From Candidatus Bathyarchaeota archaeon (lineage in GTDB: Archaea; Thermoproteota; Bathyarchaeia; Bathyarchaeales; Bathycorpusculaceae), in NCBI GenBank assembly GCA_937873375.1, contig CALMWK010000061.1, positions 1 through 54,945 on the forward strand: a DNA stretch of 54,945 bases, read 5' to 3'. The notes under the pieces are model-generated. The model did not search any database and was not told the DNA's origin. It saw only the letters and a list, made by a program, of their open reading frames with translations. The position numbers and the translations under genes were made by a program. Below, piece after piece: positions 425 through 6,195 of this stretch (positions are counted from its first letter, which is position 1; the number at the start of each line of letters is the position of its first letter).

Positions 425-470
425 CAGTGGTGGGGTGCCCTGATTTGAACCAGAGTCTATAGAGTCCAAG
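425..470 (-). repeat. degenerate copy of the 3' half of tRNA-Pro(UGG); att-like direct repeat
   Basis: cagtggtggggtgccctgatttgaaccagagtctatagagtccaag matches 1938-1984 with a 1-nt deletion and a few substitutions; similarity ends at the anticodon-loop edge. Confidence 0.8.
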
Positions 471-728
471 GGGTCCATAACTGTTGATTGGAACGAGTTT
501 AGGGCGTATTTGGATTCTAAGTATGTCCGGTCCTATGTAACCTCGCTTTTTGAGCATGCACACAAGTACCACCATTTACTGTGTGATGTTAATGGGATTC
601 ATCTCGCTAAGCAGACTGCTAGAAATAGCATTAAATGGTTTACCAATGCTTGGCTTAAGCGGGAACATGTAGAGTTTATGATGCCGAGCTTAAAGCTAAG
701 CTACCGCGCGCGTGAAATCACCGTGTAA
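444..728 (+). pseudogene. fragment of an archaeal tyrosine integrase, no catalytic domain
   Basis: Frame FEPESIESKGSITVDWNEFRAYLDSKYVRSYVTSLFEHAHKYHHLLCDVNGIHLAKQTARNSIKWFTNAWL resembles the N-terminal SAM-like region of archaeal integrases (WxxFxxYLxSKYxxxYxxxLFxYAxKYHHLL); stops before any R..HxxR..Y region. Confidence 0.65.
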
Positions 729-1626
729 GGATTATTTTTGCTACGGTCCCATTTATTTCAGGGTGCTCATTGAGGTAGGCGTAAGTATGGTCTATGATTT
801 CGGCAGTGAACCAAAGTGGAACCGCTCTTTGAGTTATTACCTGATTGTTTTCTGGTATGTACTTCCAGCTGTCGACAATAACTACCACCACGCGCTCTAC
901 TGTTGGCCAAACAAAACTGTCAATTCCCGCGATTTCTTTTGTTATTGGCTGTCCATCTGCTTCAACGTTACCAAAATCAATTGTTTTGTTTGTAACAGGA
1001 GTATCCAGATTATCCTCAAGATAAACAAAAATAAGTGCTATAGTGTTTTGGGAAGCAACTTGTCCGGTATTTGTTAAAGTGATTCTAACTCTTCCTAGCT
1101 CTCGAAATGCTACATAGTCAAGTTTTACTTCAACTTTGGCTTCGAAAACGGCATTAGGCATGTTGATTGAAATAGGTAATGTTACATCGCCTGAAACTGT
1201 AATGTTCTGTTCAACGGTATATTGTTCATAATACGGAATAATGCTGAGTATATGTTTACCATACTCGATATTTCCGCTCTGCAACTCCCCGTTTTGCATC
1301 GTTGTTCCCACGTCTTTGCCATCAATAAGAACTGAAGCGTTATCTACGAATTTGCTTGTTTCTGTATCAGTTATGATTAATGTAATTGTTGCGTGTGGGC
1401 TTGGTGAAAGTGTTGGAGTTGATAACGGTGAAGTTGGTGAAGCTGATGGCGTGGATAATAATGTGGGTTCTGGAGAAGGTTTTTGGGTTGATTGGTCCGT
1501 TGTGGGGTGGTAGCTTATTGCTATAGCTGCTATGATGAAGGCCACTATCAGGAGGGCAATTATTACTTTTATTATTCTCCAGTTTAATCCTGAGAAGTGG
1601 AATTTTAGAATCATCCTATTTACCAA
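718..1626 (-). CDS. membrane-anchored extracellular protein, N-terminal TM, Ser/Pro/Thr linker, PEGA-like domain
   Basis: N-terminal hydrophobic helix IIKVIIALLIVAFIIAAIAI, PSPEPTLLSTPSASP linker, ASVLIDGKDVGTT...GKHILSI PEGA-like stretch. Confidence 0.65.
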   Translation of the reverse strand: MVNRMILKFHFSGLNWRIIKVIIALLIVAFIIAAIAISYHPTTDQSTQKPSPEPTLLSTPSASPTSPLSTPTLSPSPHATITLIITDTETSKFVDNASVLIDGKDVGTTMQNGELQSGNIEYGKHILSIIPYYEQYTVEQNITVSGDVTLPISINMPNAVFEAKVEVKLDYVAFRELGRVRITLTNTGQVASQNTIALIFVYLEDNLDTPVTNKTIDFGNVEADGQPITKEIAGIDSFVWPTVERVVVVIVDSWKYIPENNQVITQRAVPLWFTAEIIDHTYAYLNEHPEINGTVAKIILTR

Positions 1627-1744
1627 ATAATATTATGCATAATAGAATGAATGTTTTTCGGAAAAGCAACTCAATTTACGGAGCGCGTGCTGAACTTTTA
1701 TGTAAGCTGAAAAGACCAACTTTATAGCAATAAGTTCCCTTCGG

Positions 1745-2023
1745 ATGCGCACGGGTGCGAATACAATGACTTCCAAAGGTAATGTTGTTCTTTATTTAGA
1801 CAGAGACTTGGTTGAAAAGTCGAAAGAATATGGCTTTAACTTGAGTAAGACGTTTGAAAACCACTTAAAACACCTAATAACGCAGTTCTCGGAGGGCAAT
1901 TTGGTGAATAACTTTGATTTAGCTAAGAATGAAAAGTCAGTGGTGGGGCTGCCCGGATTTGAACCGGGGTCTATAGAGCCCAAGTCTACAAGCCTGGACC
2001 AAGCTAGCCGACAGCCCCGCTGA
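1745..2023 (+). CDS. ribbon-helix-helix/CcdA-like N-terminal piece of a partitioned integrase, reading through the tRNA gene
   Basis: MTSKGNVVLYLDRDLVEKSKEYGFNLSKTFENHLKHLITQFS (likely start 1766) followed by tRNA-encoded GLPGFEPGSIEPK; same frame as the 444-728 fragment. Confidence 0.6.
   Translation: MRTGANTMTSKGNVVLYLDRDLVEKSKEYGFNLSKTFENHLKHLITQFSEGNLVNNFDLAKNEKSVVGLPGFEPGSIEPKSTSLDQASRQPR
1944..2018 (-). tRNA. tRNA-Pro(UGG), CCA encoded at 1941-1943
   Basis: Reverse complement folds: acceptor GGGGCTG/CAGCCCC, anticodon stem GTAGA/TCTAT with loop CTTGGGC, T arm CCCGG-TTCAAAT-CCGGG, A73, CCA. Confidence 0.93.
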
Positions 2024-2168: not shown

Positions 2169-2522
2169 TTATTTTCTTCTTACGTCACACTGCAAAACTT
2201 TGGGGCAGACCAAGCATTCGTCGGGTATCTGTCCGCTGCCGCCGACTCCTGCAGGACCCAGCAGTCCACTGAAATGTGCGCATTTTGCTGGGGAATCAAA
2301 AACTTTCGGCGGGTAATCAACGGGTTTTACGTCGACGATTTTCGTGTTTTCGGTGACTATGTCGATTTTGGACATGCAGAACGGGCAAGCGTAGTAGGAT
2401 TGTCGGGTTACGCCTGACTTGTCGGTTAAAACGGTGGGCTTCTCAAACGTTTTTTCGCAGCCCTTGTAGGGGCAACGCAAATGCTCATCGTGTCCGTGCC
2501 CGTGGAACCACTGCAAATCCAA
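2169..2522 (-). CDS. zinc-ribbon / Cys-rich protein
   Basis: CPYKGC...CPFC...CLVC...C pattern in 117 aa ORF. Confidence 0.6.
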   Translation of the reverse strand: MDLQWFHGHGHDEHLRCPYKGCEKTFEKPTVLTDKSGVTRQSYYACPFCMSKIDIVTENTKIVDVKPVDYPPKVFDSPAKCAHFSGLLGPAGVGGSGQIPDECLVCPKVLQCDVRRK

Positions 2523-3411: not shown

Positions 3412-4665
3412 ATGAGCGCAGGAGACATATCATGGGTCCTAACCGCAACCGCCCTAGTAATGCTAATGACACCAGCATTAGGCTTCTTCTACGGCGGATT
3501 AGTCAGAAGAAAAAACCTCGTATCCACCATAGTCCAGTGCCTAGTCATATACGCAGTCATAGCCGTCGTATGGGCACTCTGGGGATACAGCATGGTCTTC
3601 GGACCAAGCATCAACGGAGTCATCGGCGACCTCTCACTATTCGGACTCAACAACATAACCATACACACACCATACGGTTCAATACCTGAACTGCTATTCT
3701 TCGCCTTCCAACTACAGTTTGCCGCTATCACACCCGCACTCATGGTAGGCGCATTCGCGGAACGCATCAAATTCCGCACCTTACTCATCTTCAGCGTACT
3801 CTGGTTAACACTCATCTACGTACCCATCGCACACTGGGTCTGGAACCCCCACGGATGGCTACTCGGCATAGGCGCCATTGACTTCGCAGGCGGCATCGTC
3901 GTCCACATCGCAGCAGGCTTCTCAGCACTCGCAGCAGCCCTCGTCGTAGGCCCGAGACGAAAAGGATGCGTCACACCATGGAAAGACCACATGAAAACCT
4001 TAGATGTAAAAGAAACACCAGAGAAACCAACCAACATCCCCTACGTCATCTTAGGCGCAGCACTCCTATGGTTCGGATGGTTCGGATTCAACGCAGGCAG
4101 CGCACTGGCAGCAAACGAGCTCGCAGTCTCAGCCTTCGTCACCACAAACCTAGCCGCAGCCGCAGCCGGAGTCAGCTGGATGATCATGGACTGGATAATT
4201 AAAGGCAAACCCTCAGCAGTCGGCATATCCATCGGTGTAGTCGTTGGTCTCGTCGCCATAACCCCCGCAGCAGGCTTCGTCAGCGTATCCTCAGCACTAA
4301 TCATCGGCCTACTAGCAGGCGTCATCAGCAACCTCATAGCAGGTTGGAGAGCAGGCAGATCCCGAATAGACGACACCTTAGATGTCTTTGCATGCCACGG
4401 CATGGGCGGACTCTGGGGCTCAATAGCAGTCGGCCTATTCGCCATCGCATCAGTCAACGGCGTAAACGGCCTACTCTACGGCAACCCAGGCCAACTGGTT
4501 GCTCAGCTGATAGCCGTCGGCGTAGTCGTGCCCTTCGCATTCGTAGGCTCGTACTTGCTATTGAAGCTACTCAACAGGTTCTCCCCGCTAAGGGTGAGCC
4601 CAGAAGCAGAAGATGCAGGCTTAGACCTTAGTGAACACGGCGAAGAAGCATACTGCCTAGAATAA
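3412..4665 (+). CDS. amt: ammonium transporter (Amt family)
   Basis: SAGDISWVLTATALVMLMTPALGFFYGGLVRRKN, AHWVWNPHGWL, DFAGGIVVHI, DDTLDVFACHG. Confidence 0.97.
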   Translation: MSAGDISWVLTATALVMLMTPALGFFYGGLVRRKNLVSTIVQCLVIYAVIAVVWALWGYSMVFGPSINGVIGDLSLFGLNNITIHTPYGSIPELLFFAFQLQFAAITPALMVGAFAERIKFRTLLIFSVLWLTLIYVPIAHWVWNPHGWLLGIGAIDFAGGIVVHIAAGFSALAAALVVGPRRKGCVTPWKDHMKTLDVKETPEKPTNIPYVILGAALLWFGWFGFNAGSALAANELAVSAFVTTNLAAAAAGVSWMIMDWIIKGKPSAVGISIGVVVGLVAITPAAGFVSVSSALIIGLLAGVISNLIAGWRAGRSRIDDTLDVFACHGMGGLWGSIAVGLFAIASVNGVNGLLYGNPGQLVAQLIAVGVVVPFAFVGSYLLLKLLNRFSPLRVSPEAEDAGLDLSEHGEEAYCLE

Positions 4666-4716
4666 GCACAGACTCAAAAGCCCAAAAGGCTCCACCCCTT
4701 CCCTTTTTTAGTAACC

Positions 4717-4731
4717 TTCAGTCAAACTGAA
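4717..4731. repeat. inverted repeat TTCAGT-CAA-ACTGAA in amt-amt intergenic region
   Basis: Perfect 6-bp arms, 3-nt spacer. Confidence 0.45.
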
Positions 4732-4834
4732 TTTTGGACATTTTTCAGGTTTAAAACCAAAGCCACAACAAAAAATGGACAAACATTCAAACTACACGAC
4801 ATAAAATCGCCAATAATCCATTTTTCCCAAAATT

Positions 4835-4849
4835 TACATTATAAATGTA
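4835..4849. promoter_or_regulatory. inverted repeat TACATT-ATA-AATGTA upstream of second amt
   Basis: Perfect 6-bp arms about 70 bp upstream of the amt2 start. Confidence 0.4.
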
Positions 4850-4917
4850 TTGTTTAAATATTTGAATGTGGTGAATGAATGTAAAATTAGATAGAAAACT
4901 TGAAAGAAGGCACAAAC

Positions 4918-6195
4918 ATGTCTGCAGGCGATGTTGCATGGGTTTTAATGGCTACAGCTCTCGTCATGGTCATGACTCCAGCGTTGGCTTTCTTTTACGG
5001 CGGATTAGTCCGCAGAAAAAACCTTGTCTCCACGTTAGTTCAATGCATAATAATCTTTGCAGTAGTTAGTCTCATCTGGCTTTTTTGTGGTTACAGCCTC
5101 GTTTTTGGCCCAAGTTTCCACGGCATAATAGGCAACCTGTCTTTGGCAGGACTCACCCATATCGGAATAAACGACGTCAGTCCTTACGCACCAGCCATCC
5201 CTGAACTGCTGTTTTTTGCATTCCAACTAAAATTTGCAGCAATCACACCTGCGTTAATTATTGGTGCGTGTGCTGAAAGAGTACGGTTCCGTTCTTTGCT
5301 CATTTTTGTCGTTTTGTGGTCTATTTTCATTTACTCGCCTATTGCCCACTGGATGTGGAACACCGACGGTTGGTTACGGGCTCTAGGTGCCGTTGACTTT
5401 GCAGGTGGCATCGTTGTGCACATTGCCGCGGGTTTATCTGCTTTGGCGGCTGCGTTGATTGTGGGCAGAAGAAGAGGTTGCGTTTACTGGAAAGACCACA
5501 TGAAAGCTATAGGTGGAAAAGGTGGGAGTGCACCTATGCCTCAGACCACAGAGTTCAAACCCACAAACATTCCCTATGTAATTTTAGGTGCGGGTCTGCT
5601 GTGGTTCGGCTGGTTTGGCTTCAATGGAGGCAGTGCACTTGCCGCAGACAGCTTGGCTGTTTCAGCTGTAGTTGTTACTAACTTGGCTGCAGGTGCAGCA
5701 GCGGTAAGTTGGATGATTCTGGAGTGGATAACTAAAGGGAAACCTTCAGCAGTCGGCATAGCGGTTGGCGCCGTCTGTGGACTGGCAGCGGTTACAGCTG
5801 CGGCAGGCTACGTTAACGTCACTTCTGCAGTAATTATTGGTTTAGCGGCAGGAGTAATCTCTAATCTGGTAGCTAATTGGCGTGCAGGGAGGTCAAGAAT
5901 TGATGACACTTTAGATGTTTTTGCGTGTCATGGCATTGGAGGTATCTTGGGCGCTATAGGTGTGGGATTGTTTGCAACAACGATGGTTAACAACGTGTCA
6001 GGGTTATTCGAAGGCAACATGTATCAATTGGGTGCGCAAATTCTAGCTGTGGGCGTTGTTTCCGCTTTTGCTTTCTTTGGTTCATATCTATTGCTGAAAT
6101 TGGTTAATGTTTTCTCCCCGTTGAGAGTCAGTGCTGAAGAAGAAGATGCAGGGTTAGACTTAAGTCAGCATGGCGAAGAAGCATACAATCTATAA
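4918..6195 (+). CDS. amt: ammonium transporter (Amt family), tandem paralog
   Basis: MSAGDVAWVLMATALVMVMTPALAFFYGGLVRRKN; track ORF begins at 4900, but ATG 4918 aligns with the start of the first paralog. Confidence 0.97.
   Translation: MSAGDVAWVLMATALVMVMTPALAFFYGGLVRRKNLVSTLVQCIIIFAVVSLIWLFCGYSLVFGPSFHGIIGNLSLAGLTHIGINDVSPYAPAIPELLFFAFQLKFAAITPALIIGACAERVRFRSLLIFVVLWSIFIYSPIAHWMWNTDGWLRALGAVDFAGGIVVHIAAGLSALAAALIVGRRRGCVYWKDHMKAIGGKGGSAPMPQTTEFKPTNIPYVILGAGLLWFGWFGFNGGSALAADSLAVSAVVVTNLAAGAAAVSWMILEWITKGKPSAVGIAVGAVCGLAAVTAAAGYVNVTSAVIIGLAAGVISNLVANWRAGRSRIDDTLDVFACHGIGGILGAIGVGLFATTMVNNVSGLFEGNMYQLGAQILAVGVVSAFAFFGSYLLLKLVNVFSPLRVSAEEEDAGLDLSQHGEEAYNL

Follow-up and report, generated by a model that had tools for sequence, protein, structure and literature searches.

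A probable relic of a suicidal SSV-like integrative element with an RHH-fronted integrase in a bathyarchaeal tRNA-Pro(UGG) gene

The window (the whole stretch of 54,945 nucleotides analysed here, from an uncultured bathyarchaeal archaeon) is most likely to carry, in its tRNA-Pro(UGG) gene, a 1.5-kb relic of a suicidal (SSV-like, partitioned) integrative element, a reading to which a probability of roughly 93% is assigned. Its integrase gene (int) is split at the attachment site (att), with IntN at the intact tRNA gene and IntC at a displaced half copy, both on the same strand; the intact model of this arrangement is an element in the relative G107, which occupies the same tRNA-Pro(UGG) gene and supports the decayed insertion with an att-split integrase proposed in the preliminary description of this DNA. 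The window element itself is a relic and no working member of its kind. Suicidal integrases are a known puzzle, as their own gene is destroyed upon integration and yet they persist.

The half-tRNA repeat and the reading frame across it

The features of the relic and its flank are as follows:

427–470, plus strand: displaced, decayed 3′ half of tRNA-Pro(UGG), the distal att site (35/44 identical to 1941–1984)
444–632, plus strand: IntC remnant of a tyrosine integrase, comprising the att peptide and the start of the core-binding domain (60% identity to the IntC of G107; 63-bit profile match)
633–728, plus strand: in-frame continuation in which sequence comparison detects no integrase homology, the catalytic domain being absent
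718–1626, minus strand: surface protein with a Pro/Ser/Thr-rich stretch and a weak PEGA/carboxypeptidase-regulatory-like region, probable cargo (rare homologs)
1708–1767, plus strand: promoter/leader block of the ribbon-helix-helix (RHH) module, with BRE/TATA-like ACCAACTTTATAGC and SD-like GGGTG (nhmmer 42 bits, E 7e-11; alignments)
1766–1984, plus strand: IntN, a CcdA-type RHH domain and att-encoded linker running antisense into tRNA-Pro, the ORF going on to 2023 (Pfam CcdA; 48 related modules)
1941–2018, minus strand: tRNA-Pro(UGG) gene (ARAGORN), the integration site, its 3′ half restored by the element
2169–2522, minus strand: chromosomal flank gene, syntenic beside tRNA-Pro in G001, G153 and G154 (64–67% identity)

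The repeat contains an ungapped core of 39 nt (432–470 versus 1946–1984) with 34/39 identical positions (87%), a match for which the chance expectation anywhere in 2 kb is about 1e-8. Similarity spans the tRNA from its 3′ end to position 1984; with the anticodon placed by ARAGORN at 1980–1982 on the minus strand, the repeat begins where the anticodon loop has its 5′ edge, the position at which the SSV1 integrase is reported to cut (PMC8371274). A direct half-tRNA repeat (427–470 and 1941–1984) bounds the window element, one of the marks by which a suicidal SSV-like element is recognised. The G+C content between the repeats is 40.5%, versus 46.6% for the whole window.

The preliminary description had noted the decayed repeat of the tRNA 3′ half, its end at the anticodon-loop edge and the in-frame rejoining of the split ORF by crossover, all of which are confirmed: joining 1766–1984 to 471–725 in silico gives an open frame of 73 codons that continues with GSITVDW. 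The single frame which it assigned to both copies holds from FEP (444) onwards and fails before that point, because the distal copy has lost 1 nt and contains a TGA at 441–443.

Directly outside the distal att copy lies a small 55-aa gene (161–328), a homolog of which is also found directly outside the IntC att copy of G107. Farther along the window, two similar neighbouring ORFs of 417 and 431 aa (3412–6195) appear, by eye, to be ammonium-transporter-like.

The distal integrase remnant and the surface protein

The distal frame is 60% identical over 67 columns (E 1e-17) to the catalytic half of the split integrase of G107. Against a profile of 11 relatives it scores 63 bits, while none of 2000 shuffles exceeds 7.7 bits, and it still reaches 48 bits when the three nearest relatives are left out of the profile. 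A partial tRNA pseudogene followed by chance reading frames would agree with the small size and decay of the distal copy, but it leaves this integrase match unaccounted for and can practically be dismissed.

The integrase-like character formerly attributed to the whole of 444–728 is retained for 444–632 on the strength of this profile match, Pfam being blind to the fragment (no Pfam family is detected in the 95-aa distal frame), and is withdrawn beyond 632, where the residues of 633–725 bear no family resemblance (rank 1292 of 1608 shuffles). Catalytic remnants in 633–725 were considered and rejected, as MAFFT placement of pieces of this segment on the catalytic domain is no better than that of shuffles. 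With integrase homology stopping at 632, the suspected loss of the catalytic domain is borne out; the PF16795 domain is deleted from the window, whereas it is present in G107 and scores at the cutoff in G103.

The surface protein (302 aa) has homologs in only 4 other genomes among 260. One of these is located within an intact 12.7-kb split element in the tRNA-Ala(UGC) gene of G103 (L151, G103:C13, 3288–16222), which has an exact 45-nt repeat and a zinc-finger-like IntN; the homolog's position there makes it likely that the window protein is element cargo, as first proposed.

The RHH front and its promoter block

The window IntN matches PF07362 (CcdA) with 24.3 bits, above the gathering cutoff of 22.4, which supports the RHH/CcdA-like front named in the preliminary description; it matches this family only, the fuselloviral integrase N-domain PF07935 being absent upstream of att in the window. 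The model of the RHH monomer has two helices (residues 13–21 and 26–48) with pLDDT near 90 and no strand. A fold search with this small model returned no significant match, the best being chains of DinJ and RelB-toxin complexes (E about 7–8), and a PDB sequence search with the RHH profile returned no meaningful match.

Conservation among 41 loci covers the roughly 58 nt that precede the RHH start, at about 0.8–1.4 bits per column. This block has a sharp edge at the BRE/TATA-like ACCAAACTTATAACA, farther upstream of which conservation is near random (0.1–0.2 bits per column), and it is not detected before zinc-finger-like IntN genes. Two features of the leader were tried and rejected. Although the arms TCGCA/TGCGA pair in 79% of cells, their covariation is no better than shuffled and no hairpin or palindrome is therefore claimed, while a second regulated gene behind the promoter block found no support among the extra blocks, which are mostly decayed or truncated copies.

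The window's genome also encodes a second CcdA-type RHH ORF with no tRNA nearby (L003, G000:C69:19344–19463), which resembles the front of a 362-aa RHH-integrase in G114.

Intact counterparts and congeners

The relatives compared are in large part fragmented metagenome bins. In G107, the same tRNA-Pro(UGG) gene harbours a 15,774-bp element, the half-tRNA repeat of which is perfect between the tRNA 3′ end and the anticodon loop. The IntN of this element is of the RHH type, and its IntC bears the archaeal integrase domain PF16795 (38 bits). A TIR-domain protein is encoded beside its IntN (L044, 16425–17252), while nine other tested proteins of the element have no confident Pfam match. Outside this intact element, a third, diverged half-tRNA-Pro copy (L044, G107:C2, 127–171) suggests repeated integration into this tRNA gene. 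A 9.8-kb element occupies the tRNA-Pro(UGG) gene of G103 as well; its IntC is 65% identical to that of G107, but its IntN is zinc-finger-like, with no similarity to the RHH IntN. No intact version of the window's very element was found among these relatives.

The preliminary description had suggested seeking full-length RHH-att-integrase genes and empty tRNA-Pro(UGG) sites in relatives; unsplit genes of that kind and tRNA-Pro sites lacking the RHH half do occur. Five unsplit genes were found (L045, 383 aa; L046, 364 aa; L047, 394 aa; L048, 334 aa; L063, 307 aa). L046, which is of the window's catalytic type, has a predicted fold like that of archaeal XerA (E 1.3e-4), and the next kind of structure that its model resembles is the catalytic domain of the SSV1 integrase, at a TM of 0.69 on the target, a match that alone is not significant (E 0.16–0.3). 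The RHH half is lacking at tRNA-Pro in five of six congeners (G001, G002, G003, G005 and G006), in which the stretches read contain no second half-tRNA copy. G004 has a broken IntN and two adjoining genes in common with the G107 element.

A parallel relic is present at tRNA-Gln in G192, where IntN is intact, a 91% half-tRNA repeat lies 9.2 kb off and IntC is decayed. In G121 (L169, G121:C179, 477–7784), exact 46-nt half-tRNA-Val repeats are separated by 7.1 kb; an RHH IntN is located at one of them and an RHH-att-PF00589 gene at the other. This is probably the product of tandem insertion, by which an entire integrase gene would be formed again.

We infer that both halves in the window stem from one insertion. 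As IntN is intact and the distal copy strongly decayed, the halves may differ in age, and as the same IntC type follows a zinc-finger-like IntN in G103, IntC alone is no proof of an RHH partner. Successive insertions at tRNA-Pro, with the distal copy and its IntC remnant dating from an older one and the RHH IntN from a younger one, are a possible though rather unlikely origin, consistent with this unequal decay, with accretion at the same site in G107 (the third half-tRNA copy, L044:127), with the RHH-att-integrase hybrid behind the RHH IntN of G121 and with the additional, decayed promoter blocks present on IntN's element side. A single insertion is favoured by the nearest IntC, which comes from the RHH-bearing G107 (60%) and not from the zinc-finger-bearing G103 (49%), and by the half-tRNA-Pro copies in the window, of which none remain beyond the two described.

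Distribution of the RHH module

Of the 48 distinct RHH modules collected, 29 enter tRNA genes, in every case antisense; a further 5 are joined to a full integrase, and 14 show neither arrangement. The tRNA genes hit represent 11 anticodon types (Val, Gln, Pro, Ala, Leu, Thr and Gly). The module is present in 42/400 genomes of the phylum, 12 of these 42 lying outside the class; in one genome scan every named match is Candidatus Bathyarchaeota, and no relatives on viral contigs were found in two scans. The integrase group of the window relic, with its antitoxin-like DNA-binding front, is widespread, and the earlier remark that RHH-fronted integrases are less commonly described needs the qualification that such a front is not rare in this lineage.

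Could the RHH ORF belong to the host, as an ordinary CcdA-like antitoxin or regulator whose end falls by chance in a tRNA gene, with no tie to an integrase? The CcdA family match and the solo position of most such ORFs within 7–20 kb would suit this explanation, but it is highly improbable in view of the exclusively antisense entry into tRNA genes, the five fusions to full integrases and the matching catalytic half at an exact repeat in G107; moreover, no CcdB-type toxin partner is present among the ORFs listed beside the RHH ORF, which itself enters the tRNA gene.

For most solo modules, the surrounding 7–20 kb hold no second half-tRNA copy, from which it follows that front halves commonly outlast their elements. 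Solo copies are broken in G004, G062, G093 and G154. The dN/dS values of the 11 closest pairs are low (0.03–0.33), a level that cannot tell selection before integration from selection after it.

Module exchange and catalytic classes

The RHH parts of G107 (tRNA-Pro, PF16795 class) and G078 (PF00589 and SAM-like class) agree at 71% over 51 residues, whereas their catalytic halves are alike only in a 53-residue stretch (32%). The two IntN of G107, at tRNA-Pro and tRNA-Val, are identical in the first 37 residues. Judged by sequence comparison, two different catalytic classes follow the RHH front, in each case joined to it via the att peptide, and the front of one catalytic class can be RHH or zinc-finger-like. 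This pattern fits the module-exchange model proposed for Thermococcales integrases, as related by a 2021 review (PMC8371274).

L045, L047, L048 and L063 are RHH-att-integrases of the PF00589 class with a SAM-like core-binding domain, and PF00589-type genes contain, or start with, a tRNA-derived att peptide. PF00589-like frames at L112, L113, L116, L117, L119, L127, L128 and L129 start in tRNA-complement-like peptides (GFEPATS, WWAGPDLNR). Such starts suggest that many split integrases may be of the PF00589 class. According to the same review, suicidal integrases belong to PF16795 families alone and arose only once (PMC8371274); contrary to this, the present data suggest that enzymes other than those of PF16795 also have the suicidal layout.

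Comparison with known systems

The SSV1/SSV2, pTN3 and pT26-2 families share with the window relic and its intact relatives an att site within the int gene, a tRNA target bounded at the anticodon-loop edge, a gene split into a tRNA-proximal IntN and a distal IntC, and the PF16795 domain (in the intact relatives). They differ in the front end: here it is an RHH domain of the CcdA type, preceded by a conserved promoter block, whereas SSV2 has PF07935 in that place; no RHH domain is found by profile in the sampled SSV-type integrases (SSV2, Thermococcus prieurii virus 1 and Aeropyrum globular virus 1). XerA, pNOB8 and SNJ2-like enzymes (PF00589 with a SAM-like core-binding domain) have the catalytic class of L045, L047, L048 and L063, but the RHH-fronted ones carry a tRNA-derived att peptide within the gene and occur as split halves. 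CcdA antitoxins (PF07362) and RHH regulators such as F55 of SSV1 are likewise small proteins with an RHH domain and their own promoter; in the window, unlike in these, the RHH domain is followed by the att peptide and the integrase, with no toxin gene. The thaumarchaeal NitEve-E3, as far as its description was available (PMC6563490), is similarly a small integrated element with a split SSV1-like integrase and no viral hallmark genes, and an RHH front end is unmentioned in that part of the description. A literature search, covering papers outside subscription, found no description of RHH-fronted archaeal integrases.

Proposed mechanism and role of the retained half

In the preferred reading, a circular element would have carried a single gene consisting of promoter and leader, CcdA-type RHH domain, att-translated linker, core-binding domain and catalytic domain, where the linker would be read from att, itself complementary to the 3′ half of tRNA-Pro. 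Recombination of att with the anticodon loop of tRNA-Pro(UGG) would restore the tRNA and cut the int gene in two, leaving promoter, RHH domain and att peptide at the tRNA and moving the promoterless catalytic half to the far end, so that integration would silence the catalytic half by parting it from its promoter. Later, the catalytic domain and almost the entire cargo would have been lost by deletion, while the displaced tRNA copy decayed.

The RHH domain is a dimerising DNA-binding fold. In SSV integrases the N-terminal part mediates multimerisation (PMC8371274). By analogy, the RHH domain probably serves integrase assembly and DNA binding, and it may autoregulate its own promoter.

It has been considered in addition that the retained RHH half acts as a resident regulator, or as a dominant-negative partner, against incoming related integrases. 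This addition is doubtful. The conserved promoter/leader block of the half and the low dN/dS would be in keeping with such a role, as would the transcription in S. solfataricus of only the int(N) part of two integrated elements (PMC8371274) and the repression of virus promoters, including its own, by the RHH protein F55 of SSV1 (PMC9608457). Several solo copies are broken, however, the purifying selection may predate integration, the inverted leader arms lack covariation, and no second gene is set clearly behind the promoter block.

As a tentative extension, the promoter-RHH-att half might be built to outlive integration, remaining active at the tRNA and binding the leaders of related int genes or poisoning incoming integrases, and so excluding superinfecting elements. 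If this is true, superinfection exclusion would serve the resident elements and later the host, and the persistence of the RHH half would explain why intact solo RHH halves are found in so many tRNA genes. With solo front halves so plentiful, a post-integration function of IntN becomes testable.
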